From assembly GCA_002748735.1 (NCBI GenBank), contig PDTC01000016.1:24336-88335 (forward strand): a stretch of DNA of 64,000 bases, given 5' to 3'. Below the pieces are notes generated by a model, which did not search any database, had not been told where the DNA came from, and was given only the letters and a program-made list of their open reading frames with translations. Both the position numbers and the translations under genes were made by a program. Shown here one piece after another: positions 7,993 to 62,335 of the stretch. Numbering within the stretch: position 1 is the stretch's first letter; each line of letters starts with the position of its first letter. This stretch comes from Desulfobulbus propionicus. GTDB taxonomy: Bacteria > Desulfobacterota > Desulfobulbia > Desulfobulbales > Desulfobulbaceae.

Positions 7993-9345
7993 ATGCGTAC
8001 GTTTCGCTTTTTTTTGTCGTGTTCACTTGCAACCGTTCTTCTTGCCCTGACCGGACTTGCCCTCCAGGCCGAAACTCTCGGCGAAGCCGTGCAGACAATG
8101 ATCGCCACCAATCCGGATATCCGGGCGGCAGTCCATAACCGACTGGCTCGCAATCAAGAGGTCCGCCAGGCTCAATCCGGCTACTTCCCCACCATAGATC
8201 TGGTTGCCGGTATCGGTAACGACGTCGTTCAACAACCCTTTGACGATGATCTCTCTCCGCAACAGCTCAACCTCAGTCTCCGCCAGAACCTCTTTACCGG
8301 ATTTGCCACCACCAACGAGGTACGGCGACAGAAGGCCCGGGTACGTTCTCAGGCCTATCTCGTGGGAAGTAGAGCTGATAACTCCGCTCTGAAAACCGCT
8401 GGTGTTTACCTGGAGGTGCTCAATACCAGTTCTCTGCATGAGCTGGCCCAGGAAAACCTGCTCATCCATGAACGCATTGCCGATCAGATCCAGCTTCGCC
8501 GTGAATCCGGGGTTGCCAGCACCGCCGACCAAGATCAGATCAGCAGCCGTTTAAGCCTTGCCCAGGCCAATGTGGTCAACACCCGGCAAAACCTCGAGGA
8601 TGCCCGAACCGGCTACCTGGCAGTTGTCGGTCATCTCCCAGAAGCTCTGGTCTGGCCTGAAGCTCCTGACAGCTTCATGCCAGACTCCCGGGAAGAAGCC
8701 GAACAACTGGCCCTGGCAAACCATCCCACCCTGAAATCGGCCAACGCAGATATCCAGGCACGCCTTGCCCAGGACAACGTTGCCCGAAGCCCGTTCATGC
8801 CCATACTGGACCTGGAGCTTGACCAGATCTATGAGGACCAGACCAACTACAGTCATGGTTCCCGCGAAGACTTTCGGGCCATGCTTCGCCTGCGCTACAA
8901 CCTGTTCAACGGATTCAAGGATCAGGCCCGCAAGGTCGAGACCCTGGAGCTGCTCAATGAGGCCAGGGAAATTCGCGACAACACACAACGCCAGGTTGTC
9001 GAAAGCATTCAGCTCTCCTGGATGGCCTATCGTTCCAACGTACAAAAAATCAGCTATTTAAAAAAACGAGTAACCTCTGCCAGTCGAACCGCAGAAGCCT
9101 ATTCCCGGCAGTTCAAACTGGGGAAACGGACCCTGCTCGATGTTCTCGATGCTGAAGCAGAACGTATCGAGTCGCGGCAACAGCTGCTCAACGCCGAACA
9201 TGACCTGCTCTACTCCAAGTACCGTGTCCTCAACGGTATGGGACGGCTTGTCAAGGCCCTGCATCTCCAGTGGCCGGAAGCCAGCCGGATTGACAAAAAA
9301 TATGCCGATGAAACTGCCAGCGAAGAGGCTGATGCCACCTCCTGA
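7993..9345 (+). CDS. lapE: TolC-family outer-membrane protein of a Lap-type type I secretion system
   Basis: A 450-residue protein with a signal peptide (residues 1-26, ending LALQA before ETLGEAV) and two TolC-type repeats. Each has the long helices and beta segments typical of outer-membrane efflux proteins (for example QSGYFPTIDL and RSPFMPILDLELDQ, the paired first strands, and LRQNLFTGF/LRYNLFNGF, the second strands). TolC trimers span the outer membrane and periplasm. Here the partner genes lapG, lapD, lapB and lapC follow, so it is the exit duct for a large adhesin. Upstream, TTGACC at 7913 with a weak -10 17 bases later may be the promoter. It is the first gene of the cluster. Confidence 0.92.
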   Translation: MRTFRFFLSCSLATVLLALTGLALQAETLGEAVQTMIATNPDIRAAVHNRLARNQEVRQAQSGYFPTIDLVAGIGNDVVQQPFDDDLSPQQLNLSLRQNLFTGFATTNEVRRQKARVRSQAYLVGSRADNSALKTAGVYLEVLNTSSLHELAQENLLIHERIADQIQLRRESGVASTADQDQISSRLSLAQANVVNTRQNLEDARTGYLAVVGHLPEALVWPEAPDSFMPDSREEAEQLALANHPTLKSANADIQARLAQDNVARSPFMPILDLELDQIYEDQTNYSHGSREDFRAMLRLRYNLFNGFKDQARKVETLELLNEAREIRDNTQRQVVESIQLSWMAYRSNVQKISYLKKRVTSASRTAEAYSRQFKLGKRTLLDVLDAEAERIESRQQLLNAEHDLLYSKYRVLNGMGRLVKALHLQWPEASRIDKKYADETASEEADATS

Positions 9346-9356
9346 TCTCCTGTTGC

Positions 9357-10148
9357 GTGGCCGAGGCTTGTCACTCAGATATGAAGGGAGTGACAACTGT
9401 GCAAAATTCAAGGATCAGTGATCGTAGGAAGCCGTTACCGGCTCAAACAGTGCGACACCGCCTCCGCTTCCCTGGTGTTTTTTCTCCCTCATCCACGACG
9501 ACACTTACGCTTGTTTTCCTTACCAACCTCTTGTGTTTTTGGACTTCTCCCGTCTTCACCGATGAAATCTTCTCCCTGAGTCCCCCTACACTGGAGCGTA
9601 TCGGAAAACACTTTGGAGAGGATGCAAGACAGCGCCTGCTCGCATGGCAGCAGATACTTCAGGACAACAGTGACGCCACCGAACTAGAGAAGATCTCCAG
9701 GGTCAACACCTTCTTCAACCGCCTGGATTTCACCGATGACCGCACCCTCTGGCAGCAGGAAGATTACTGGGCAACACCAATAGAGTTTCTTGCCAGGGGC
9801 GGAGGTGACTGCGAGGATTTCTCCATCGCCAAGTTTTTCACTCTCAAGGCCATGGGACTTGATGAAAAAAGGCTTGCTATTACCTATGTCAAGGCTCTGG
9901 GGCTCAACCAGGCCCACATGGTTCTCACCTATTACCCCTCTCCAGGGGCCGAACCGCTGATCCTCGACAACCTTACCAGCAAGGTTCTCCCGGCATCCCG
10001 ACGCCCTGATCTGCTACCGGTCTACACCTTTAACGGCGCAGGTCTCTGGATCGCCAAACAACGCGGCCGCGGCCAGATGGTTGGTTCCAGTAAGCGGTTG
10101 AAAAACTGGCGAGACCTGCTGGAACGGATGCACCGGGACACCCGATAA
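9357..10148 (+). CDS. lapG: LapG-type periplasmic transglutaminase-like cysteine protease
   Basis: A 263-residue bacterial transglutaminase-like cysteine proteinase. The catalytic triad is visible: Cys152 in GGGDCEDF, His187 in NQAHMVLTYY and Asp204 in LILDNLTS. Acidic residues beside Cys152 correspond to the calcium-binding site of LapG. A hydrophobic segment (about 50-66, TLTLVFLTNLLCFWTSPVF) acts as a signal sequence for periplasmic export. In Pseudomonas fluorescens, LapG clips the amino-terminal retention module of LapA after a di-alanine and so releases cells from a surface. It begins 11 bases after lapE. The start is uncertain: a GTG at 9357, an ATG at 9381 and a GTG at 9399 are all in frame. 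The likely substrate is the retention-module protein at 20506-22278. Confidence 0.93.
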   Translation: MAEACHSDMKGVTTVQNSRISDRRKPLPAQTVRHRLRFPGVFSPSSTTTLTLVFLTNLLCFWTSPVFTDEIFSLSPPTLERIGKHFGEDARQRLLAWQQILQDNSDATELEKISRVNTFFNRLDFTDDRTLWQQEDYWATPIEFLARGGGDCEDFSIAKFFTLKAMGLDEKRLAITYVKALGLNQAHMVLTYYPSPGAEPLILDNLTSKVLPASRRPDLLPVYTFNGAGLWIAKQRGRGQMVGSSKRLKNWRDLLERMHRDTR

Positions 10149-10158
10149 CGAGGCGCTT

Positions 10159-12123
10159 ATGACACTGTATCGACAACTCCTGCTCTACTCACTGTTACTG
10201 CTGCTGACGCTGTTTACTGTTCTCTGGTTTGCCAGGCTGGAAACCACCCGAACCTTCTTGAACGACCAGCTGTCAGTCCACGCCCAGGATACGGCCACCT
10301 CCCTGGGACTTTCCTTGTCCGCCCATCTGCACACCATGGATATCCCTGCCATGGAAACCATGATCAATGCTCTCTTTGATCGGGGATATTACCGGAGCAT
10401 CTGCCTGCTGGATCTGGAAAACACAGCGATGGTGGAACGTTCCCTGGACGTGAAGGTGGAAGAGGTCCCCGAATGGTTTATCTCACTGGTGCCGCTCAAC
10501 ACCGTCCTGGCGGAAGCCCAGGTGATGGACAGATGGCAGCGCGCCGGCACCGTGCAGGTACAGTGTCATCCCGGCTATGCCTACAGGACCCTCTGGCAAA
10601 CAACCCGGAACACCTCACTGCTCTTCCTGGCAACGGCACTCTGTATCATTCTCGTGGGTGGCGGCGTGTTGTCCCTGCTGCTGCGGCCCTTACGTCGTGT
10701 TGAACAGCAGGCATTGGCCCTGAGTAACCGGCAATACCAGCTGCAGAAGCAAATTCCACGCACCAGGGAACTTCGCAGGGTCGTTCTGGCAATGAACCAC
10801 TTGACAAGTAAAGTCAGAGAGATCTTCGACAGTCAGAGTAAAACTGCTGACAACCTGCGGCGCCGGGTCTACCAAGATTCACTCACCGGGTTAGGTAACC
10901 GCCGTTTTCTCGAAGCAAGGGTTAACTCCAGCCTGGCAGCTCACCGCTCAGGTGACCGGGGAGCCTTCCTCCTTATCCATCTCCACGGACTTCAAGACAT
11001 GAACCTGCAACAGGGGTATCAGAGTGGCGACGCCCTCCTGGTCGAGGCTGCAGCCCTGCTCAACGAGACGGCGCGTGAGCATGATCACGCCTTACTCGCC
11101 CGGCTCACCGGGGGCTATTTCGCGCTGTATCTTCCTGGAGTCAGCACAGATGATGCCCAGGGTATCGGACAGACCATCATGAAACAGCTATCTTCCCGGC
11201 TCAAGGGCGAAGAGTTAACCCTGGCCTTTGCCTTCTGTTCCATCGGCGGCGTAACCTTCGAAAGACAGGTTACCCTTGCCGAGCTGCTCAGTCAGGCAGA
11301 TAATGCTCTGCGGCAGGCCCAGAGCGGCGGCGCAAACACCGTCGTCATTGTCGAGGCACATCCCAAAGAGGCCATGGACCGGACCCACTGTCTGCAAATT
11401 CTCCAGCAGGCCATGGACCGGCAGGAAATCTCATTGTTCACCCAGCCGGTGGTAACACCCCATGATACCGAGCATATTATTCATTTAGAGGTACTGGCCC
11501 GCATCATCCTTGAAGGACAGGTGTTCCCGGCAGGGATGTTCATGCCCCTGGCGAAAATGACTGGGACTCTCCACCGACTCGACAAGATAATCGTCACTGC
11601 CATTCTCAGCCATGTAAAGGAACAGGGCCCAATCCACAGACTCGCAATCAACCTTGCTCCGCACTCCCTTAACAAACCAGGCTTTGGAGACTGGCTCCTT
11701 GCGCAGTTGAAGATCCTGGCAGACATGCACCAGGGTATCAATATCGAGTTTGCAGAGACCCCTGCCCTAAAGGAGATGGCGAAGATTACCGCTGTTACCC
11801 GTCAAGTGCAGCAACTAGGCCATCGGGTGGGTATTGATCATTTTGGCCGCGGCCTGATCAATTACGGTTATCTCAAATCCCTCCGGCCCGACTACATAAA
11901 GGTAGACCGTACCTTCACCGACGAGCTCAAGGAAGACAACACCGACGATGCTGCCTTTTTCCTCAGCTCACTGTGCAGTGCCGTCCATAGTCTCGATATA
12001 GCGGTAATCGTCGAAGGGATAGAAACCGAACAACAACTGGAGCGGCTTCGCACCATCAACCTCGACGCCATGCAAGGTTTCTTCATTGAAGAACCCAGTC
12101 CCCTGGTCACCAGGGGGCTGTAG
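10159..12123 (+). CDS. lapD: LapD-type c-di-GMP effector with degenerate GGDEF and EAL domains
   Basis: A 654-residue inner-membrane receptor. TM1 (about 5-24) and TM2 (about 154-176) bracket a periplasmic LapD/MoxY-like domain. An S-helix/HAMP region, GGDEF and EAL domains follow. The GGDEF signature is replaced by TGGYF (317-321), and the EAL signature is EVL (444-446) in IHLEVLARI. The DDFG motif reads IDHFGRG. Both enzyme domains should therefore be inactive, as in LapD, where the EAL domain only binds c-di-GMP and the periplasmic domain then captures LapG. The gene starts 10 bases after lapG. The conserved VEGIE and MQGFF segments of the EAL fold are retained. Confidence 0.93.
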   Translation: MTLYRQLLLYSLLLLLTLFTVLWFARLETTRTFLNDQLSVHAQDTATSLGLSLSAHLHTMDIPAMETMINALFDRGYYRSICLLDLENTAMVERSLDVKVEEVPEWFISLVPLNTVLAEAQVMDRWQRAGTVQVQCHPGYAYRTLWQTTRNTSLLFLATALCIILVGGGVLSLLLRPLRRVEQQALALSNRQYQLQKQIPRTRELRRVVLAMNHLTSKVREIFDSQSKTADNLRRRVYQDSLTGLGNRRFLEARVNSSLAAHRSGDRGAFLLIHLHGLQDMNLQQGYQSGDALLVEAAALLNETAREHDHALLARLTGGYFALYLPGVSTDDAQGIGQTIMKQLSSRLKGEELTLAFAFCSIGGVTFERQVTLAELLSQADNALRQAQSGGANTVVIVEAHPKEAMDRTHCLQILQQAMDRQEISLFTQPVVTPHDTEHIIHLEVLARIILEGQVFPAGMFMPLAKMTGTLHRLDKIIVTAILSHVKEQGPIHRLAINLAPHSLNKPGFGDWLLAQLKILADMHQGINIEFAETPALKEMAKITAVTRQVQQLGHRVGIDHFGRGLINYGYLKSLRPDYIKVDRTFTDELKEDNTDDAAFFLSSLCSAVHSLDIAVIVEGIETEQQLERLRTINLDAMQGFFIEEPSPLVTRGL

Positions 12124-12145
12124 GGGAGAAGCGTACCATGGCCTC

Positions 12146-12475
12146 TCAGAGGATATCATCGACGATAAAACTGTCATCGTTGAGGTGATGACGGAGAGCT
12201 TTACGCTCCCGGAGTTTTTCCTGAGCCTCTTCAGGCAGTTCTGTCAACAAGATGACCTTCTTTTTGATGAGCAGGTCAACGAGATCCTCCAGAACCCTGA
12301 TGATCGAGACGTCTGAGAGAGACAGCAACTGGCTCAGTTCAACCTCTGCTCCGGATTCCCTTAAAAATTCCGAAAACTCTTCATCCACCACAGAGATCGT
12401 CTCTCCCTGCTCTCCCGAACTGGCCAACCTGAGTCCCACAATCCTGCCTTCAGCATTGCGTTCGACGATAACCAT
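12146..12475 (-). CDS. Small conserved Lap-cluster protein of unknown function
   Basis: A 109-residue protein starting MVIVERNAEGRIVGLRL. The core LSLSDVSIIRVLEDLVDLLIKKKVILLTELPEEAQEKLRERK matches a family of about 110 residues that often sits beside lap-type genes and is frequently misnamed as a tryptophan synthase beta-like protein. There are no membrane segments; it is acidic and helical. An AAGGGAAT ribosome site 7 bases upstream supports the ATG at 12475 over an open extension to 12505. It lies opposite to, and between, lapD and lapB, facing lapD. Its function is unknown; its regular placement suggests a part in adhesin control. Confidence 0.75.
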   Translation of the reverse strand: MVIVERNAEGRIVGLRLASSGEQGETISVVDEEFSEFLRESGAEVELSQLLSLSDVSIIRVLEDLVDLLIKKKVILLTELPEEAQEKLRERKALRHHLNDDSFIVDDIL

Positions 12476-12576
12476 TCTATTCCCTTGAAGATTTGACGAA
12501 GACAACTCCGTATGATTTACTGTTCATGATACCACAGCTATTCCATGAATCAAAAGGTGATGAACGCTTTTCTTCC

Positions 12577-14748
12577 ATGACCGACAAGCAAACCACATCC
12601 CCAGGAACCTCCTGGGAGATGGGAAATGATAGCGATCTCCACGACGACCCCCTGACCGACTGCCTGGTCCAGCTCACCAGACTGCATGGCAGGCCCATGT
12701 CACGAACTGCCTTGCGCGCCGGCCTGCCCCTGGTCAACGATCGGCTCACGGTGGAGCTCTTTGCCCGGGCAGCCGAGCGGGCCGACCTCTCTGCCAGGGT
12801 GCTCAAAAGGCCCCTGAAAAAGATGACCGGCCTGGAGCTACCGGCCGTACTTCTTCTCAACAACCTGGGTGCCTGCGTTCTTGTCGCGGTGGACCGCGAT
12901 ACGTCCGAGGCAACAGTGCTCCTCCCAGAAACCGGCATGGGGGAGGCACGATTCAGCTTTGCTGAACTGGAAAAGCTTACCACCGGCTATGCCATCTTTG
13001 CCCGACCCAAATACCGACAGGAAAAGGCAATTGACGCAAAGGTAGAGCCAGGGGAAAAAAACTGGTTCTGGAAAACGCTCTTCTCCTCCTGGCGTATCTA
13101 CCGTGACGTCCTCATCGCCAGTTTTCTCATCAATCTTTTCGGCCTGGCCGGGCCATTTTTCACCCTCAATGTCTACGACCGGGTCATCCCCAATCTCGCC
13201 TTCGAGACCCTGTGGGTGTTGGCCGTTGGTATCGGTGTCATCTATCTCTTTAACCTGATGATGAAGAGCCTGCGTGGCTACTTTGTCGATGTTGCCGGCA
13301 AACGGGCAAACCTGCGACTCTCTGCGATACTGTTTCAGAAAGTTCTTGGTCTGCGTATGGAGGTCCGACCAAAATCTGTAGGTGCTTTTTCAAAAAATCT
13401 TCAGCAGTTCGAAACCATTCGCGACTTCATCACCAGTTTCTCGATCACTGCCCTTATCGACCTTCCCTTCATGGGCCTCGGCCTGTTCGCTGTCTGGTAT
13501 TTGGGAGGTATGGTGGTTTGCCTTCATTTGGGGGCAATAGTGCTTTTAGCCCTGTATGCCCTCCTTATTCAGGTACCACTGCAGCGTTCAGTCGAAAAAA
13601 CTTTTCAGGCCTCGGCCCAGAAAAACGCCATTCTCGTGGAAGGGCTTTCCGGTATCGAGACCGTCAAGATGCTCGGTGCCGAAAGCCAGCTCCAACGCGC
13701 CTGGGAGGAAGCTGTCAGCTATATAGCCACCTGGAGCGCACGCAGCCGCTTCCTCTCCAACTCGGTGAACCACTTTTCAGACTTTGTTCTCAACATCGCT
13801 GTGGTGGGGACTGTTATTATCGGTGTCTACCGGATTGCCTCTGGTAACCTCAGCCAGGGCGGCCTCATCGCCCTGGTCATTCTCACCCGCCAGGCCATTG
13901 CCCCCATGACCCAGGTGGTCAGCCTGGCAACACGCTTCCACCGTGCCAGAGCAGCACTGAAAACATTAAACAGCATCATGGCCCTCCCGGTGGAACGGCC
14001 TGCAGGCAAGGCCTTTCTCCATCGCAGTACCTGCAAAGGCCGCATTGAGTTTAACGCTGTCAGTTTTACCTATCCTGAACAAAAAGGCCATGCCCTGAAA
14101 AATATCTCCTTGACGCTTGAGCCCGGCGAGAAGGTGGCACTCATCGGCCCCATCGGCTCAGGCAAGACAACCCTGGGTAAACTGCTGCTCGGCCTGTTTG
14201 AACCGAGCGAGGGGATGGTGAGCCTGGACAGCACCGACATTCGCCAGATCGATCCGGCACAGCTGCGTCACTTTATTGGGTATGTTCCCCAGGATATCAC
14301 CCTGTTTCGGGGTACTCTCCGCGATAACCTGACCCTGGGCTCCCAGGACGTGGAAGACACGACCATTCTGCGGGCAGCAGAGATGAGTGGCACAGCTGAT
14401 TTTATTGGGCGCCATTCCCAGGGATTTGACATGGAGGTCGGCGAGCAGGGCAGGAGGCTTTCCGGTGGGCAGCGGCAAAGTGTCGCCATTGCCCGGGCAG
14501 TGCTTCATGATCCACCGGTACTTGTCATGGATGAACCCACCAGTTCCATGGACAACCGCACTGAACAGCGGCTCAGGGGACGGCTCAAGACATTTATCGG
14601 CCCAAAGACCCTGATCCTTATCACCCACCGCAGCTCCATGCTCGATCTGGTGGACCGAATCATCATCATTGATAACGGCGCAGTCGTGGCTGACGGTCCC
14701 AGAGACAGAGTACTCAGTGCCCTGAAAAACGGACAACTCAACTTCTGA
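12577..14748 (+). CDS. lapB: Type I secretion ABC transporter/permease of the LapB type
   Basis: About 723 residues from the chosen ATG. The N-terminal ~130 residues form a C39-peptidase-like domain (DDPLTDCLVQLTRLHGRP) without the catalytic Cys-His pattern, so it recognises rather than cleaves the substrate. Then come an exporter transmembrane domain with about six helices (DVLIASFLINLFGLAGPF onward) and an ATPase domain with Walker A GPIGSGKTT, signature LSGGQRQ and Walker B VLVMDEPTSSMD, and H-loop ITHRSS. It drives adhesin export through the inner membrane. The start is uncertain: the frame is open to a TTG at 12493 and other ATGs, but family members begin just before the DDPL segment. 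It lies 4 bases before lapC. Confidence 0.92.
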   Translation: MTDKQTTSPGTSWEMGNDSDLHDDPLTDCLVQLTRLHGRPMSRTALRAGLPLVNDRLTVELFARAAERADLSARVLKRPLKKMTGLELPAVLLLNNLGACVLVAVDRDTSEATVLLPETGMGEARFSFAELEKLTTGYAIFARPKYRQEKAIDAKVEPGEKNWFWKTLFSSWRIYRDVLIASFLINLFGLAGPFFTLNVYDRVIPNLAFETLWVLAVGIGVIYLFNLMMKSLRGYFVDVAGKRANLRLSAILFQKVLGLRMEVRPKSVGAFSKNLQQFETIRDFITSFSITALIDLPFMGLGLFAVWYLGGMVVCLHLGAIVLLALYALLIQVPLQRSVEKTFQASAQKNAILVEGLSGIETVKMLGAESQLQRAWEEAVSYIATWSARSRFLSNSVNHFSDFVLNIAVVGTVIIGVYRIASGNLSQGGLIALVILTRQAIAPMTQVVSLATRFHRARAALKTLNSIMALPVERPAGKAFLHRSTCKGRIEFNAVSFTYPEQKGHALKNISLTLEPGEKVALIGPIGSGKTTLGKLLLGLFEPSEGMVSLDSTDIRQIDPAQLRHFIGYVPQDITLFRGTLRDNLTLGSQDVEDTTILRAAEMSGTADFIGRHSQGFDMEVGEQGRRLSGGQRQSVAIARAVLHDPPVLVMDEPTSSMDNRTEQRLRGRLKTFIGPKTLILITHRSSMLDLVDRIIIIDNGAVVADGPRDRVLSALKNGQLNF

Positions 14749-48733: not shown

Positions 48734-50119
48734 ATGCGACACGCAATATCCACCCTGATGGTCCTGCTGATGACAACCTGGGCCGTTGCCGAGGGAACAG
48801 CGGCAGCGGAGATGGAAGACGTCGAGGTGCTCGATCTGGTTACGGCGCAGCAGATAGCACTGCACGGAAATCCCCAGCTTAAGGCGGCAAAAGAGCGTGC
48901 TGCACAGGCACGCCTTCGGGTGGAGCAGGCTGCAGCCCACTGGTGGCCGGACCTAAACCTCACCGCCTCTGCCCAGCATAAAAATCTCTCGGACAGTGAA
49001 TATGCCGGGAACCAACTGGCAGCGAGCCTATACGGCGGCAATGCTGATAACAGTAGCGACACCTTTGTTGTCGGTATCCAGACCTCCTGGCTGTTATTCG
49101 ATGGGTTTTATCGCCGATTCAACCAGGAGATGGCCAAGGCCGACGAACGCTCGGCTGAAGCAGCACTGGTTAACGCCCGCCGACTACTGGCAACCAGCGT
49201 TGCCGAGGCCTTCTACAACGCCCAGCTCGCGCAGACCAATGAAAAGATTGCCAGGGCTGACGAAACCTTTTACCTGCAGCGGCTTGAAGACGCCGAGAAC
49301 ATGTTTGACGCCGGTGCAGGAGCCAGGGGAAATATCCTCAACATCAAGGTTCAGTTGAACCTGGCTCGGGCCTCTCGAATGGCGGCACGGCGTAATTTCG
49401 AGGCTGCCGGGTACGGGCTTGCCGCCTTACTTGGCCTGCCCGATGGCAGGCTTCCGAATGGTGTTCTACTGCAACCTCTGCACCAGGACTTTGAGGTGGA
49501 AAGCGTACAGACAGATGTTGCAGCATTACTTGCGCAAGCCCTGTCACAGCGGCCGGATATTCAAGAAATGGAATACCGTGTTGCCCTGGCAGAGGCTGGA
49601 AACGGTCTGGTCAGAACCGCCTTTTACCCGCAGGTACAGATCGTCGGCACAATCAACGGTGCCCGCCAGGGTGATGCCGTTTTTGCCGATGAAGATTTCG
49701 GCAGTACCCTCTCCGTCAACCTGCAATGGAACCTCTTCAACGGGAAGGAGGATGAAGCACGGCTAGCTGAGGCTCGCCACCAGAAACGGGAAATGACCCA
49801 CAATCTGGCGGCACTGAAAAACGCGATTGCCGCTGAAGTCCGCGAAAATGTCGTCCTGCTCGAGGCTGCTAAGGAGCAGGTGCGTTTGCAGCGGGATACA
49901 GTGGTGCTTGTCGAAGAAAACCGCGAACTGGCCCAGAACGCATATGAGGCCGGTGAATCGTCACTGGTTCGACTCAACGAGGCGCAGCGGGACCTTACCA
50001 CCACCCACGGACGATTGGCACAGGCCCTTGTAAACTTTCACCTGGCCCGCCAACGACTGCTATCAGTTACCGGTGCCATCCTTGATCCTTTCCCCTCTCT
50101 GGAAAGGACCGACTCGTAA
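48734..50119 (+). CDS. TolC-family outer-membrane efflux protein (orphan)
   Basis: A 461-residue protein with a signal peptide (residues about 1-27, STLMVLLMTTWAVAEGTAAA). It has the duplicated TolC repeat with paired strands (HWWPDLNLTASAQHK/TAFYPQVQIVGTINGARQ, VGIQTSWLLFDGFYRR/VNLQWNLFNGKEDEAR) and long coiled helices. No pump or adaptor gene lies next to it; the nearest downstream gene is a YeeE/YedE transporter after 211 bases. It therefore probably works with a pump encoded elsewhere. It differs clearly in sequence from lapE and from the C-terminal part of the fused efflux protein. Confidence 0.9.
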   Translation: MRHAISTLMVLLMTTWAVAEGTAAAEMEDVEVLDLVTAQQIALHGNPQLKAAKERAAQARLRVEQAAAHWWPDLNLTASAQHKNLSDSEYAGNQLAASLYGGNADNSSDTFVVGIQTSWLLFDGFYRRFNQEMAKADERSAEAALVNARRLLATSVAEAFYNAQLAQTNEKIARADETFYLQRLEDAENMFDAGAGARGNILNIKVQLNLARASRMAARRNFEAAGYGLAALLGLPDGRLPNGVLLQPLHQDFEVESVQTDVAALLAQALSQRPDIQEMEYRVALAEAGNGLVRTAFYPQVQIVGTINGARQGDAVFADEDFGSTLSVNLQWNLFNGKEDEARLAEARHQKREMTHNLAALKNAIAAEVRENVVLLEAAKEQVRLQRDTVVLVEENRELAQNAYEAGESSLVRLNEAQRDLTTTHGRLAQALVNFHLARQRLLSVTGAILDPFPSLERTDS

Positions 50120-55741: not shown

Positions 55742-56224
55742 CCACGGCAGATGGGTACGTTTTGTGAACAAACAGGAAACACGTCAATTTGTCAAAGAGC
55801 AGGGTGATAACGAGCAATTGTTAAAGTCGAAAGTTGAGTGAATAAGCAGAGAGGTTCGCAGGCTCCACCTGGGCAACGCACAGTGAAGTTCCAGCACAGT
55901 GTTCGCGCAGGAACCAAAGGAGCAGTAGGCAAACGGATGGAGCAACAACCGAAACTGGTTCATCAGAAATCGATACCGTTGCAAGCAAGCCGCTTGAAGA
56001 GCGTTTTTTTACTCTTGACAAGGGGGTACAGTTTTACATAGAGTTAACCGGTCGGCCAGTTAATAATATTGGCGGCAACAGCTCCCCTGAGCAGATGAGT
56101 CCGTTTTGAGAGAGGCAACAATACTCCTTGAATTGCTGTGAGATAAAAATCGTAAAAATATAAGGACTTGCTCCAAGCAAAATTTCGAGCAACCAGTAAC
56201 CGAAGAAATAAGGGGGAAATATCC
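55742..56224. other. 480-base region between the decayed transposase and tetR
   Basis: No gene of recognised family. Its right half contains the first copy of the TetR-type operator palindrome (56044-56063) and the leader of tetR. The left part probably includes the end of the old insertion element. Confidence 0.4.
56044..56063. promoter_or_regulatory. TetR-type operator, copy 1 (upstream of tetR)
   Basis: TTAACCGGTCGGCCAGTTAA, an imperfect palindrome almost identical to the copy at 56867-56886 (18 of 20 bases). It lies 160 bases before the tetR ATG. This sequence type is widely found as a TetR-family site. Confidence 0.75.
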
Positions 56225-56845
56225 ATGAGTGCTCAACGTCCAAGAGACCCGGAAACTACGAAAAAAGCGCTGTTGGATGCCGCAGAGAAAGAGTTTCTTG
56301 AAAAAGGGTTCGGCAAAAGTGCGATGAGCCAGATTGCGCGACGGGCCGGTGTGACAAAAAGCCTCATTCATCATTATTTTGGGTCCAAGCAGGGGCTGTG
56401 GAAGGAGGTCAAGGGCCGTCGGTTTGAAGAGTACTACCAGAAACAGATGGAGATGTTTGACCAATACGGGCCGTCTAGCAGAATAGAACTGCTCCGTGAA
56501 TCGGTGGCCGTCTATTTCCGGTTTTTGCAGGAAAATCCCCAGATGATCCGGATACTGGTCTGGATGTTTCTGGAGCGGGATCAGGAAGTGTGCCTGGAAA
56601 AAGATAGAAAGCTGGCGGAAATCGGGGGGGCTGAGTTGGAAAGAGCTCAGCGGAATGGCCATATCCGGCAGGATATTGATCCCCGCTTTATCCTGTTTAC
56701 CTTTATCGGCCTCTGTCAGCACTGGTTTCAGGATAAGGAGCATTTTCTGCGCGACTTCGGTTCGGAAGGCCTGCCGGAAGATCTGGACGAGGCATATCTG
56801 GAAACCATCAATAAGATTTTTTTCGAAGGAATTTTACCGCGTTGA
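56225..56845 (+). CDS. TetR-family transcriptional repressor of the efflux operon
   Basis: A 206-residue regulator. The N-terminal helix-turn-helix is clear: KKALLDAAEKEFLEKGFGKSAMSQIARRAGVTKSLIHHYFGSKQGLW (about residues 12-58). The helical C-terminal ligand-binding domain has the TetR_C-like QENPQMIRILVWMFLERD. The start is the ATG at 56225 with AGGGGGA 9 bases upstream. It lies between two copies of one operator palindrome, one 160 bases before it and one just before the adaptor gene, so it most likely represses both itself and the efflux genes. The inducer is unknown. Confidence 0.92.
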   Translation: MSAQRPRDPETTKKALLDAAEKEFLEKGFGKSAMSQIARRAGVTKSLIHHYFGSKQGLWKEVKGRRFEEYYQKQMEMFDQYGPSSRIELLRESVAVYFRFLQENPQMIRILVWMFLERDQEVCLEKDRKLAEIGGAELERAQRNGHIRQDIDPRFILFTFIGLCQHWFQDKEHFLRDFGSEGLPEDLDEAYLETINKIFFEGILPR

Positions 56846-56866: not shown

Positions 56867-56886
56867 TTGACCGGTCGGCCGGTTAA
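56867..56886. promoter_or_regulatory. TetR-type operator, copy 2 (between tetR and the efflux adaptor)
   Basis: TTGACCGGTCGGCCGGTTAA, an imperfect palindrome 33 bases before the adaptor start codon and 21 bases after the tetR stop. It differs from copy 1 at two positions. Its place suggests a second promoter for the efflux genes under the same repressor. Confidence 0.75.
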
Positions 56887-56918: not shown

Positions 56919-58019
56919 ATGAAAACGAAGACCCGGTATCTACGTGTTATTTTTGGATTCATTTTTTTGGTGACGGCTCTGGCATTATGGCTATGGCCGC
57001 AAAAGCAGCAGCATTCACAATCCCCGCCATCCCTACAGCAGCTTACAACCGTTGTTAGGCTGGCCGAGGTGGAGGAGGCTGCCACCAGACGGACGATTCG
57101 GTTTTCCGGGGTTACCAGGGCCACGCAACGCGCGGTAATGGCATTTTCAATTCCTGGCCGCCTGGTCAAAAGGCCGGTGGAGGCAGGCTCCCGGGTAAAA
57201 GAAGGAGTTGAACTGGCCAAGATCGATATCCGGGAATATCAGAACATGGTCAATATGGCCCGAGCAACGGTAGCAGAACTCAATGTTCGTGCAGCCCAGG
57301 CGAAAAGGGACAGGCGACGGATTGAAAAACTGGCTGATGTACGGGCGGCAACCGCCGAAGAACTGGAGCAGGTCACTGCCGTAGCAGCTGCCGTTAATGC
57401 ATCGCTTTCGGCAGCAAACGCCCGGCTGGATGAGGCGAAAAGGGTCTTGGACGAGGCCTCTCTTCGAGCCCCTTTTACCGGCACGGTAACAGCGGTCTTT
57501 CTCGAACCAGGCGAATATGCCTCTCCGGGAAAACCGGTTATTGAGTTATCGGGGGATGGGGAGATCGAACTGCAGGTTGAGGTTCCTGAAAATATGGTGA
57601 TGACCCTGACAGAGGGGCAGGCTATCGGTGTGACCCTGCCGATGGCTGGTGGAAAACAAGTCGCCGGGCGGATCACGTCCATAGCCCGGGCCGCGGCCGC
57701 AGCGGGACGTCTGTTTCCGGTGGTGGCAACACTGAAACCACTGCCCGGCCTTGCCGCCGGCATGACTGCAGAGCTGATCCTCGACATTGAAAATGAGGGG
57801 GAACTTACCGTTCCTGTGACTGCTGTTATTAATCCGGGTTCGAGCAATCCTTACGTTTTTTGCCTTGATGGAGAAGTGGTCCGCCGGGTGCCGGTAACAC
57901 TGAGGTCATTCTCCGGTGACCGTGTCATTATCCGGGGTGATTTATCAAGAGGCGACCGCGTCGTCATTTCCGGCCATACCATGCTGACAGACGGGGAAAG
58001 GGTGAAGGTGGCACTATGA
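56919..58019 (+). CDS. RND-type periplasmic adaptor (membrane fusion) protein
   Basis: A 366-residue protein with an N-terminal transmembrane anchor (about residues 7-24, YLRVIFGFIFLVTALALWLW). Lipoyl half-motifs (MAFSIPGRLVKRPVEAGSRVKEGVEL and LRAPFTGTVTAVFLEPGEYASPGKPVIELSG) flank a short helical hairpin (about 110-185). Beta-barrel and membrane-proximal domains follow. It would join the inner-membrane pump to its outer-membrane partner. It starts at the ATG at 56919, with a GGAGG ribosome site 4 bases upstream. It overlaps the pump gene by 4 bases (ATGA), so the two are coupled. Confidence 0.93.
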   Translation: MKTKTRYLRVIFGFIFLVTALALWLWPQKQQHSQSPPSLQQLTTVVRLAEVEEAATRRTIRFSGVTRATQRAVMAFSIPGRLVKRPVEAGSRVKEGVELAKIDIREYQNMVNMARATVAELNVRAAQAKRDRRRIEKLADVRAATAEELEQVTAVAAAVNASLSAANARLDEAKRVLDEASLRAPFTGTVTAVFLEPGEYASPGKPVIELSGDGEIELQVEVPENMVMTLTEGQAIGVTLPMAGGKQVAGRITSIARAAAAAGRLFPVVATLKPLPGLAAGMTAELILDIENEGELTVPVTAVINPGSSNPYVFCLDGEVVRRVPVTLRSFSGDRVIIRGDLSRGDRVVISGHTMLTDGERVKVAL

Positions 58020-61000
58020 AGATAATTGACGCAATCCTCAGCCAGCACCGGCTTATTTTAACCCTGGCTACAGCCCTCTCGCTGATGGGAGGGCTTATGT
58101 GGTTCACCATGATCCGTCAGGAGGACCCGCGCCTTCCTGATTTCATGGGACAGATCATCGCGACCTATCCGGGAGCGGATGCAGAAACTGTTGAACGTCT
58201 TGTTCTGGAACCGATGGAAGACGCCCTGGCCGAAGTCTCCGCCATCAAAAAGATTCAGGCTAACGCCTCTGATGAAATCGCTGTCGCCCTTGTTGAACTA
58301 AGGGGGAATACAGACGATTTTTCAAAAGCTTGGGACGATGTCCGCGAGGCCCTTGCCACCGCATATCAGGAATTTCCAGGCGGGGCGGCAATGCCGATTC
58401 TGGATGACGATCTGATGGACCAGGACTCGGTGGTGCTTGCTGTATCGGGATCTACCGATCCTCTCGTACTTCTTAACGCTGCCCGGAAATTGAAGGACGG
58501 TTTGCTGACCCTTTCCATGGTAAGCCGGGTGGAGATCGTTGCCGACCCGGAAGAACAGGTAACCCTTGATCTTGATGATGCGGTGGCCAGGCGCATCGGC
58601 ATTGATGCCGTTCAGCTGGCGAACCGGCTTAATGCCCGCAACCGGATTATTGCTGGAGGCTCGCTGCGACTGGGAGAGAAAACCGTGCGTCTGCGGCCAC
58701 TCTCAGAATTTTCATCCGTCAACGAGATTGCCCAGACCCAGGTCACGCTCTCCTCAGGAAGTTCGATTCCCCTCGGCGAAATCGCCCGCGTTCATCTGGG
58801 GCCAAAAGAGCCGGCAACTTCGCTGATGCGGGTAAATGGTGAAAGAGCTCTTGGAGTTGCCGTCGTTCCCCGCCGGGAGATCAACCTTGTCGATTTTGGG
58901 CAGGCCGTCCGCGACAAGGTCAATACCATCGCACCGGATTTAACTCCGATCACCGTACAGGAGGTGACGTTTCAACCCAAACGTGTCAAGGCCAGATTGG
59001 CTGAACTAAGCCGATCCCTCCTTCTTGGCATCCTTATTGTCGGCGGTATTCTGATTATCACCATGGGTACGCGCATGGGCCTGGTGGCAGCTTCCGTGGT
59101 ACCCCTCGTGACGCTGTCGTCACTTGCCGTTTTCGCCTGGGGGGGTGGTGTGCTGCATCAGATATCCATTGCCTCACTGGTACTCGCCCTTGGCATGCTT
59201 GTCGATAATGCCATTGTGATGGCGGAGAATATCCAGTGGCGCCTTGACCGGGGTGCCGCTGCCAAGGAGGCCGCCACCGGATCGGTGCGGGAACTGGCAG
59301 TACCGCTGGCCGGTGCCACTGCCACCACCATGGCCGCCTTTGTCCCCATGCTGATCGCCAGAGGAACCACAGCCGCATTTACCAAAAGCATTCCCATTGT
59401 TATCATGTTGACCCTGTCGATCAGCTATCTATTTGCACTGCTGGTAACACCAGTACTTTCGCAGATATTTCTTAAACCACAACCAGCAAAGACAACCTCT
59501 CCGGCTGAACGACTGGGCACGAAGCTGGCCCGTTTTGCGACAAGGCATTCTCGCTGGGTTATTGCGGCTGCATTGGTGGCAGTGGCCGGTTCTTTTACCG
59601 CAACAAGATGGGTCGATCGCCAGTTTTTTCCGACTTCGGATCGCAACCAGTGCGTGATTGATCTGAAACTTGTTGAGGGGTCGCATCTGGATGCCACCGA
59701 TGTGGCTTCACGAAAACTGGAACAGGCCCTGCTGTCGCGACCGGAGGTGTTCAAGGTCACTGCCCTTATGGGACGGAGCGTTCCCAAGTTCTACTATAAC
59801 CTCAGCCGAATCCCCTATAGTCCGCATCTGGCCCAGCTCATCGTTGAAACACGGAAGAAGGAAGAGGTGACAGCATTGCTCGCCTGGGCCAGGGAGTATA
59901 TCAAGACCCAGCTTCCCGAAGTGGAGCTGGTGGCGCGTAAACTCGAACAGGGTCCTCCTGTAGGGGCTCCGGTGGAAGTTCGGATATATGGCAATGATCT
60001 TGAAGACCTCAATACCATCGCAGTAATGATTGCCGGCGAGTTGAAAAACATCGACGGTGTCATCGATGTTCGTCACGACCTCGGACCCGGCGTACCAACG
60101 ATCCGGTTTAACGTCGATGATGCCGCCGCATCCCGCTACGGGATATCTCGTGCCGATCTGGCCCGGGCCCTCTATGGACGAACCCGGGGTATCCCCATTG
60201 GCGAGCTGCATATCGGAGAAGATCCCGTCCCGGTGGTGATCCGCTCCTCTGCTGGGGAAAATCTGCCCATCAATGACCTGGAAGCTGTATCGGTAAGCGC
60301 TGCAGATGGACGGCCCATCCCTGTCGCTCAGGTAGCAACTCTGGAAACGACCTGGCGGCCAGCCACCATACGCCACTGGAACAGCCGGCGGGTGGTGACC
60401 GTCTCATCCCAGCTTATTGAGGGATATACCTTTAGCGATATTTTGGCACAACTGGCGCCCAAAATCAGAACCCTGGAACTTCCCCCAGGCGTTGATATCA
60501 GCTTCGGCGGAGATGCCGAAGGCTCCGGCGAAGCCAACAGTGCCCTGCTGCATACGCTGCCGATCGGGCTGATGTTATTGCTCGCTGTGCTGCTCGCTGA
60601 ATTCAACTCATTCCGCCGCATGTTCATCATTCTGATCACGGTACCCCTCGCTGCCGCCGGAGTCGTACCCGGCCTGCTCGTTGGCAGCCAACCCTTTGGT
60701 TTCATGTCGATGCTTGGCGTTATCGCACTGGTGGGCATTGTCGTCAATAACGCCATTGTGCTGCTGGAAGTGGTGGAAAATCGCCGACGTGCCGGAGCCG
60801 ATATCGATAATGCTCTTGAAGATGCGGTCTCCCGCCGAATCCGCCCTATCCTGCTGACCACCGCGACAACGGTGGCCGGCCTGCTGCCCCTGGCCCTCTC
60901 CTCTTCTACACTATGGCCTCCCCTCGCCTCAGCCATGATCTCCGGACTCCTCGCCTCGACGCTGCTGACGCTGGTGGTGGTCCCGGCCCTCTACCGGATA

Positions 61001-62335
61001 ATGTTCAGGCAACGATCCTTTTGCCCCGCCGCCACCCAAAAGCGACTCATTGGGATTGTTCTACCTCTCGCTATCATCTTCGCCGGGACAACTACTGCCA
61101 GAGCAGAAAAATCGATCCGTATCTCCCTGATCCAAGCTATGGAAATGGCGGCGACCCGTCCGGCAGTTGCAGCTGCCAATGCCATGGTACTTGCCGCGGA
61201 AAAGGCGGCCGAAGTTGAACAGCGAAGGACCCTCTGGCCGAGTATCACCTCGTCGGTATCGCGCTCATGGAAAAGCCGGGAACCAGTTATGGAGACACCC
61301 CTCGGTGCGTTTTCAGTCGGTGGACAAAATACCACTGCCGCTATGATCAAGATTTCCCAGCCGCTATTTGATCCGGCCGGACTCCTTTATGCCGCTCCTG
61401 CCGCCGTTGACGAAGCCCGGGCCGAATCTTTACGGGCGGAATGGGTCCACCGGCAACTGGCTGCCGATGCCGGTAATGCCTATTTGGATATCCTTGAAAT
61501 TGATGCTCGAATCAAGGCTACCAGCGCATTTGTAAAGAGTTTGACCGCCCGGCTGGAGGAGATCCGGCATATGGTCAGCGTCGGTCGAGCTCTGCAGACA
61601 GATACGCTTAAAATCGAGCTGGCCCACGACCAGGCCTGCCAGGAGTTGGCAGAGTTACAGCGCTCCCGGGAGATCGCCCTGCTGGCCCTGGCCCGGGCTA
61701 TCAACTATGACGGGGATGTGGAGCCCCAACCTGTCCCAGACCTCGTAGACAGCGAGCCGCCCTCTGTTTCGGCATCATTTGCCGCTGCACTGCAACAACG
61801 CCCGGATCTGGCCGCCTTGAAAACCACCATTGGGGCGCTGGAAAAGCGACGCCTGGCCGTGCGCGCAGGCGCCTGGCCACGACTGGACGCCGAGGCCGCC
61901 TGGGTCTGGAATGAGCCCTCATCCTCTACCGAAAATAACTGGTACCAGATGGGTGTCACCCTTACCTGGACGCCCTTTGCCGCCGGCACCCGGAGCGCTC
62001 AAGCCGCCGCCATAGCCGCCCGTACCGGCTCGCTTCGCCATGATCTTAAAGAGGCCAGACAGGGGATACATCTTGAGGTGAAATCGGCAACAGCAGCCAT
62101 CGACAATGGTCGGGATGCTTTTTACGTTGAAGAACGAGGTGTTGTCCAGTCCGGGGAAACTCTGCGAGTAGAGCGGGCCCGTTACCAGGAAGGCCGGGCA
62201 ACGATAAACGATCTTCTTACTGCCGAGGCTCAGTTCAGAAAACGTCAAACCATGCGTGAAATTGCCCGACTCAGGATTGTCCGTGCCTGGATTACATTAT
62301 GGATGATTGCTGGAGAAAAGGAACTCCCTTTTTGA
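58016..62335 (+). CDS. RND efflux pump fused in frame to a TolC-type outer-membrane protein
   Basis: A 1439-residue polyprotein. Residues 1-995 are a complete RND permease: 12 helices, two large periplasmic loops (about 31-325 and 550-865), the TM4 proton-relay motif GMLVDNAIVMAEN (Asp-397), and the TM10-11 GIVVNNAIVLLEVVENRRR. Residues 1031-1439 are a full-length outer-membrane efflux protein with TolC repeats (IRISLIQAMEMAATRPAV ... TLWPSITSSVS ... LRVERARYQEGRATINDLLTAEAQF). Between them, residues about 1009-1030 read as a classic signal peptide: KR, a hydrophobic stretch, then TTTARA before EKS, a signal peptidase I type site after Ala-1030. RND pumps end in the cytoplasm, so this segment is correctly placed to export the second part. 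No stop separates them. Substrates are unknown. Confidence 0.92.
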   Translation: MKIIDAILSQHRLILTLATALSLMGGLMWFTMIRQEDPRLPDFMGQIIATYPGADAETVERLVLEPMEDALAEVSAIKKIQANASDEIAVALVELRGNTDDFSKAWDDVREALATAYQEFPGGAAMPILDDDLMDQDSVVLAVSGSTDPLVLLNAARKLKDGLLTLSMVSRVEIVADPEEQVTLDLDDAVARRIGIDAVQLANRLNARNRIIAGGSLRLGEKTVRLRPLSEFSSVNEIAQTQVTLSSGSSIPLGEIARVHLGPKEPATSLMRVNGERALGVAVVPRREINLVDFGQAVRDKVNTIAPDLTPITVQEVTFQPKRVKARLAELSRSLLLGILIVGGILIITMGTRMGLVAASVVPLVTLSSLAVFAWGGGVLHQISIASLVLALGMLVDNAIVMAENIQWRLDRGAAAKEAATGSVRELAVPLAGATATTMAAFVPMLIARGTTAAFTKSIPIVIMLTLSISYLFALLVTPVLSQIFLKPQPAKTTSPAERLGTKLARFATRHSRWVIAAALVAVAGSFTATRWVDRQFFPTSDRNQCVIDLKLVEGSHLDATDVASRKLEQALLSRPEVFKVTALMGRSVPKFYYNLSRIPYSPHLAQLIVETRKKEEVTALLAWAREYIKTQLPEVELVARKLEQGPPVGAPVEVRIYGNDLEDLNTIAVMIAGELKNIDGVIDVRHDLGPGVPTIRFNVDDAAASRYGISRADLARALYGRTRGIPIGELHIGEDPVPVVIRSSAGENLPINDLEAVSVSAADGRPIPVAQVATLETTWRPATIRHWNSRRVVTVSSQLIEGYTFSDILAQLAPKIRTLELPPGVDISFGGDAEGSGEANSALLHTLPIGLMLLLAVLLAEFNSFRRMFIILITVPLAAAGVVPGLLVGSQPFGFMSMLGVIALVGIVVNNAIVLLEVVENRRRAGADIDNALEDAVSRRIRPILLTTATTVAGLLPLALSSSTLWPPLASAMISGLLASTLLTLVVVPALYRIMFRQRSFCPAATQKRLIGIVLPLAIIFAGTTTARAEKSIRISLIQAMEMAATRPAVAAANAMVLAAEKAAEVEQRRTLWPSITSSVSRSWKSREPVMETPLGAFSVGGQNTTAAMIKISQPLFDPAGLLYAAPAAVDEARAESLRAEWVHRQLAADAGNAYLDILEIDARIKATSAFVKSLTARLEEIRHMVSVGRALQTDTLKIELAHDQACQELAELQRSREIALLALARAINYDGDVEPQPVPDLVDSEPPSVSASFAAALQQRPDLAALKTTIGALEKRRLAVRAGAWPRLDAEAAWVWNEPSSSTENNWYQMGVTLTWTPFAAGTRSAQAAAIAARTGSLRHDLKEARQGIHLEVKSATAAIDNGRDAFYVEERGVVQSGETLRVERARYQEGRATINDLLTAEAQFRKRQTMREIARLRIVRAWITLWMIAGEKELPF

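Follow-up and report, generated by a model that had tools for sequence, protein, structure and literature searches.

How can a single open reading frame supply both an inner membrane pump and an outer membrane channel? RND pumps of the textbook kind use two proteins from two genes, one for the inner pump and one for the outer channel. The question is raised by a 64,000-nucleotide stretch of Desulfobulbus propionicus contig PDTC01000016.1 (assembly GCA_002748735.1; positions 24,336 to 88,335 of the forward strand), analyzed at its full length and here called the window, in which a gene at 58016-62335 of the plus strand runs from ATG to stop through 1439 codons without an internal stop. Its product joins an RND permease to a TolC-type outer membrane factor through a stretch that resembles a signal peptide. 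From sequence comparisons, we consider it very probable that the gene codes for one chain of a tripartite RND efflux system, a polyprotein cut by signal peptidase, with the cleavage itself inferred. It is also likely, though we hold this less firmly, that the gene belongs to a recurrent class of efflux systems, evolved at least twice, in which pump and channel are made as one polyprotein, cut at the channel's signal peptide and supplied 1:1, the pump carrying a thirteenth helix. The parts of the gene are as follows.

58016..61000, plus strand: RND permease half (residues 1-995; Pfam ACR_tran 5-995; nearest solved chains MexK and 6vej)
61040..61105, plus strand: joint, an internal signal-peptide-like stretch (residues 1009-1030; predicted cut ARA^EKS)
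61106..62332, plus strand: TolC-type outer membrane factor half (residues 1031-1439; Pfam OEP in two stretches plus channel alignment; stop codon at 62333-62335)

The pump half was matched by Pfam ACR_tran over its full length (residues 5-995 on profile positions 3-1019, E 8.4e-148, 494 bits against a cut-off of 28), which places it among RND permeases (HAE1-like), and its nearest solved RND chains were MexK (E 1.2e-123) and 6vej (E 7.3e-114). D397 in GMLVDNAIV, the acidic residue of the fourth transmembrane helix, was invariant across nine aligned fused proteins; we take it to be the proton-relay residue. A Kyte-Doolittle scan of this half revealed most of the 12 expected helices, with the fifth-helix region under the threshold. 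Because the best NCBIfam RND subfamily, RND_permease_2, scored 403 bits against its own cut-off of 1250, no named NCBIfam RND permease subfamily is claimed. The channel half contained two OEP repeats above the family cut-off (best stretch 1254-1422, E 1.5e-36; 126 bits against a cut-off of 22). TIGR01844 (type_I_sec_TolC) matched residues 1037-1434 at 99 bits, under the model cut-off of 225, and TIGR01845 reached 38 bits against 210; since these scores fall below the subfamily cut-offs, no named NCBIfam TolC subfamily is claimed. The first-pass annotation had described one frame holding a full RND permease (1-995) and a TolC-type protein (1031-1439), and both the reading of the open frame and the Pfam matches bear this out.

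That annotation had also suggested a search for homologous proteins combining ACR_tran and OEP. In all, 34 distinct fused proteins, the window's included, were found among 87 pump rows, each encoded by one open frame. They come from Acidobacteriota, Spirochaetota, the window's own phylum, Bacteroidota, and Gemmatimonadota. Rows were labeled as fused when a tail of more than 300 residues followed the pump, and the tails were afterwards checked as channels: both Pfam domains were found in all 24 of the 34 proteins that were scanned, while a channel profile built here matched 33 of the 34, the remaining one (L117) being confirmed by Pfam. The closest relative found, L030, comes from an independent metagenome-assembled genome, a draft of Acidobacteria, where an equally uninterrupted frame encodes a protein 78% identical to the window's. 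When the whole protein was used to scan one genome per species, 15 loci were obtained, namely eight single frames of 1433-1488 residues with both domains, one split pair (L042), and six that were pump-only or cut by a contig end.

These relatives bear directly on whether the frame could reflect an assembly error or a stop codon lost recently in this genome, which is a draft of 30 contigs, 85.6% complete. Its own family offered no close copy of the fused gene among the other 39 genomes sampled; at 1e-120, two of these had a match to the pump half, 29 and 31% identical. Against this stand the 34 distinct single-frame fusions, the 78% identity of L030, and the annotated 1467-residue fusion WP_338399011.1 of Persicobacter psychrovividus NBRC 101262, whose record is named as a permease only. 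As the relatives carry the same single-frame fusion, we rejected a lost stop codon or an assembly error, to which we give next to no probability; the lost stop codon that the first-pass annotation had kept as an alternative is thereby refuted.

We then turned to the joint, which reads QKRLIGIVLPLAIIFAGTTTARA^EKS, with K1009 and R1010 followed by a hydrophobic core at about 1011-1026 and by ARA at 1028-1030. The hydropathy scan detected a separate hydrophobic segment at 1010-1030, beyond the last pump helix, so that the initial description of this stretch (two basic residues, a hydrophobic run, and an ARA end followed by EKS) agrees with both sequence and scan. The joint evolves fast relative to both halves: in eight relatives, its identity to the window was 2.9-39.4%, whereas identity lay at 44.5-82.7% in the pump half and at 24.0-70.6% in the channel half. 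The order of K/R, hydrophobic run, and small-x-small end is nevertheless legible by eye in the diverged joints of the fused relatives. The net charge between pump and core was positive in all 34 fused proteins (mean +3.2), and a hydrophobic core beyond the last pump helix was present in 34/34 of them versus 1/50 unfused pumps with a complete C-terminus, three rows without one being left out. The single exception, L065, is a locus in which a contig end cuts inside an apparent fused gene. The basic n-region, core, and small-x-small end of an internal signal peptide are thus all found, the end motif by eye and with weak statistics. In the 29 of 34 proteins measured, the distance from the end of the core to the channel domain had a median of 3 residues (range, -1 to 39); five were dropped because the channel match was missing or did not start near the profile start. 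Linker length is variable, with long polar linkers in L043 and L121.

In relatives with separate genes, a signal peptide occupies the place of the joint. In L042 (L042:1940-2160), pump and channel are separate genes, with the TGA of the pump overlapping the ATG of the channel (TGATG), and the channel opens with a classical signal peptide, MKILFKLYLLVFIVSFFGVASRVLPEAFA, at the joint's position; either an ancestral arrangement or a later fission could account for this split. In Parabacteroides distasonis (NZ_OY725750.1), pump and TolC are likewise separate, with a 42-bp gap, and a signal peptide is present on TolC itself. In both Persicobacter joints, the end seems to be a G followed by Q, and Q likewise follows the probable cleavage sites in the TolC signal peptides of the two other Bacteroidota.

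We propose that the RND half would insert into the inner membrane and leave its C-terminus in the cytoplasm, where that of RND pumps lies. Given this position and the positive linker, the core would be oriented to send the channel to the periplasm. The stretch 1009-1030 would serve as the channel's retained signal peptide, engaging the Sec translocon again with the basic residues on the cytoplasmic side, so that the 409-residue TolC-type half crosses into the periplasm. Signal peptidase I would cut after A1030, and the freed channel would follow the usual pathway to the outer membrane. On the pump, the used signal peptide would stay behind as helix 13, barring its removal by a different protease. 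With the upstream adaptor gene supplying the third component, one round of translation would give pump and channel 1:1, matching the 3:6:3 stoichiometry suggested for the assembled pump, which has a described height of 33 nm and no contact between pump and channel (PMC4754349). The character of the joint, the split in L042, and the geometry thus support the idea, put forward in the first-pass annotation, of an internal signal peptide leading to Sec export and a cut into two mature proteins. One correction to its two mature products is that the pump would retain the spent signal peptide.

If the protein stayed uncut, the joint would remain as a thirteenth transmembrane helix tethering the channel to the pump. 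Several observations speak for this and weigh against a cut at the joint, which we deduce from sequence. The hydrophobic runs at the joints have a median of 19 residues (range, 15-23), about membrane-spanning length and barely shorter than the pump helices (median 21), so the stretch could serve as an uncut anchor. Cleavage sites scored weakly with two home-made weight matrices, one built from 23 channel N-termini (5 of 27 open reading frames were dropped as truncated or mis-started, including L042, which was added back with its real start) and the other from 19 N-termini taken from this genome (about 284 kb of it) and from the first 56 kb of the window. Signal peptides were separated poorly from transmembrane helices by either matrix (area under the curve [AUC], 0.69 and 0.68, respectively). 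Separation of joints from helices was only moderate with the first matrix (AUC 0.68), and the second gave 0.78 against helices of the own genome and 0.69 against pump helices. The window's ARA^E scored 0.1 in the first matrix, under the pump-helix median of 2.2, and 4.0 in the second, over the median of 2.9. AxA occurred in 18 of 34 joints, compared to 10.9 expected by shuffling, and a looser motif was hardly enriched (31 versus 26.5). By themselves, the cleavage-motif statistics are weak, and since both matrices separate signal peptides from helices poorly, little weight is placed on their scores. The contrast between fused and unfused pump tails is also partly trivial, as most unfused pumps stop right behind the last helix and only 17 of 53 have at least 13 residues after the matched pump.

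Geometry argues the other way. With the core ending no more than 39 residues before the channel domain in the 29 proteins measured and pump and channel not touching within the 33-nm assembly, an uncut chain could hardly serve both membranes. In many TolC homologues, moreover, the lipidated N-terminus is embedded in the inner leaflet of the outer membrane, according to a further report (PMC13082787), which places the N-terminus of the outer membrane factor at the outer membrane; this position is borrowed from lipidated homologues rather than from a structure of the fused protein. Together with the signal peptides that split relatives have at the joint position, these points leave the uncut fusion unlikely. 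Alternatively, the channel might also, or only, be translated from an internal start codon close to the joint, which in the window would be ATG 61001 (M996), and carry an ordinary signal peptide. This ATG is 18 codons upstream of the core, and a plausible signal peptide would result from its use; L030 has an ATG at an equal distance from its core. No Shine-Dalgarno match of at least 3 bases, however, precedes ATG 61001; among the 34 genes, matches of at least 5 bases were found in none and 4-base matches in four (L029, L035, L106, and L124), while in two genes (L117 and L122) no ATG, GTG, or TTG occurs within the 30 codons that precede the core. As an internal start would also leave it unexplained that the frame remains open, we regard it as quite improbable. 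Cutting by a protease other than signal peptidase I, within a cytoplasmic or periplasmic linker, would be in keeping with the variable linker length and the long polar linkers mentioned above. The residues before the channel domain, however, resemble signal-peptidase sites by eye, and standalone channels from the same searches start with ordinary signal peptides, so we give this version very little chance. Cleavage by signal peptidase at the joint is therefore the reading we retain.

To gauge how widespread the fused genes are, three phylum samples were searched with a profile of nine fusions at E 1e-180, scoring at most two candidates per genome; the counts are thus lower bounds. Fused genes were detected in 10 of 297 genomes of the Acidobacteria sample (the phylum of G151), in 6 of 345 genomes of the window's own phylum (window included), and in 8 of 198 genomes of the sample of G155's phylum (Spirochaetaceae), i.e., in 24 of 840 genomes at this strict cut-off. 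An eleventh candidate of the Acidobacteria sample, L065, is cut by a contig end and was excluded from the count. The first-pass annotation had called such fusions rare; by these samples they are uncommon, although not unique. A further sample centered on G154 overlapped the Acidobacteria sample; its one addition was the fusion of G154 itself, which had been found before as L033. The record of L033 (JAHZIX010000045.1) is titled Deltaproteobacteria and labeled Myxococcota in the tree, and its phylum sample shares many genomes with the G151 sample.

Plasmid records were also searched. A fusion from the second of the two groups described below retrieved at least 5000 records, at least seven of which had one place covering at least 80% of the query. 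Six listed records with this cover comprised four fusions (two from Gemmatirosa kalamazoonensis and two from Persicobacter) and two pairs of separate genes, from Parabacteroides distasonis and Phocaeicola massiliensis. With the window protein as a query, one of 3251 records had a place covering at least 80% of it, and in the 30 of the 3251 records listed, that one not among them, matches ended at the pump half or just past it. Long CzcA-type records in Bacteroidota may be similar fusions.

Phylogenies of the two halves suggest how the fusion came about. In a pump-half tree of 85 rows (two of the 87 rows, with at most 850 residues, were left out), fused rows fell into two groups, with 18 fused of 24 rows and 16 fused of 19; the first contains the window, Acidobacteriota, Spirochaetota, and others. 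In the channel-half tree, channels of the first group stood apart at 100/100 support, together with that of the split L042, and channels of the second group were placed among standalone channels. Constraining all 34 fused pump halves as one clade cost 777 log-likelihood units (approximately unbiased test, p-AU 2.05e-90; 81 rows, four outlying or long-branched rows being left out). This constraint also excludes the unfused rows nested in each group, and the clade test alone does not count origins. The 85-row tree requires a minimum of 7 label changes, 4 of them forced by starred branches. With the one-clade constraint rejected and the channel tree also giving two groups, a single origin was set aside as improbable. 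Because the trees of both halves give two separate groups, the fusion probably arose at least twice, each time between a pump gene and an adjacent channel gene, and was lost again in some lineages; strictly, one gain with many losses could also produce the pattern. The first group also holds unfused pumps, either from Gammaproteobacteria or from two genomes in the same order as the window, and among the open reading frames listed in 15 and 19 kb around the latter two, none matched the channel profile. As the closest relative found belongs to an Acidobacteria draft genome (78% identity), the presence of the gene here is likely due to horizontal transfer or to mis-binning of the contig.

The fused system resembles MexAB-OprM and AcrAB-TolC in the functions it combines, i.e., an RND permease, a directly upstream adaptor gene, and a TolC-type channel. 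It differs in that permease and channel form one frame, with a signal-peptide-like stretch of the channel in its middle. The Parabacteroides distasonis MFP-RND-TolC operon and L042 share its gene order and have the channel signal peptide at the joint's place, but a stop and a start lie between pump and channel (42-bp gap and overlapping TGATG, respectively). The nearest mechanistic precedent is FbcH of Bradyrhizobium japonicum, a cytochrome b/c1 precursor that reportedly undergoes cleavage at a signal sequence in its interior. As in our proposal, one bacterial frame is said to give an integral membrane protein and an exported partner through an internal signal peptide; both FbcH products are said to stay in the inner membrane, whereas the second product of the fused gene would go to the outer membrane, passing the periplasm and assembly machinery. 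A literature search aimed at this precedent turned up no paper on FbcH.

Fusions of outer membrane pores exist and are described as rare in a TCDB survey (PMC4827864), where, in the portions that list them, pores are joined to other pores, to an SLH domain, or to TPR repeats. The term RND is absent from the main text of that survey, and an RND-TolC fusion is not among the fusions given there. None was found in the first part of the review PMC8277102 under fusion terms or in passages of the adaptor review PMC4446572, and nothing appeared in the accessible parts of PMC6281302 or PMC2448597. Literature searches aimed at a natural RND-TolC fusion, with few subscription journals covered, found no description in the article parts they returned. 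The architecture is present in public records without a name of its own, as WP_338399011.1 illustrates. That record also serves as a warning for annotation, its name stating the permease only and overlooking the channel. If our proposal is true, one translation event can set the stoichiometry, timing, and place of synthesis of partners destined for two membranes, and a signal peptide can function after twelve transmembrane helices. The fused gene also offers a direct test of whether co-synthesis aids pump assembly.

Genes and sites upstream of the fused gene appear to complete an operon.

56044..56063, plus strand: operator-like site, TTAACCGGTCGGCCAGTTAA, 5' of the TetR gene (two copies in the window, with 0 and 2 mismatches)
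56225..56845, plus strand: TetR-family regulator (Pfam TetR_N, E 2.3e-15)
56867..56886, plus strand: second operator-like site, between the TetR gene and the adaptor gene
56919..58019, plus strand: periplasmic adaptor (MFP; RND_mfp TIGR01730, HlyD_3, HlyD_D23)

The adaptor protein matched RND_mfp TIGR01730 at 217 bits (cut-off 94.9) as well as Pfam HlyD_3 and HlyD_D23; its start is most likely ATG 56919, preceded by GGAGGT. Its gene overlaps the fused gene through ATGA, so that an adaptor is encoded with the pump, as in a tripartite system. For the TetR gene, ATG 56225 was preferred as the start over the mechanical TTG 56168. The two 20-bp sites flanking this gene are near-identical, with 2 copies in the window (0 and 2 mismatches) and 0 in 100 shuffles; they are likely TetR operators of the pump operon, which the regulator would probably control. 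An MscS-type channel gene (Pfam) lies 3' of the fused gene. Three other OEP channel genes of the same genome are separate (7993-9345 and 48734-50119 of the window, and one on contig C2 of the genome), and the fused channel is therefore not the cell's sole outer channel.

The first of these separate channels lies in a cluster at 7993-14748 of the window, which also encodes a PF06035 transglutaminase-like protease (LapG-like), a GGDEF/EAL protein with LapD_MoxY_N, and an ABC exporter with a weak match to a C39-like domain. This cluster looks like a Lap-type adhesin secretion and release system.

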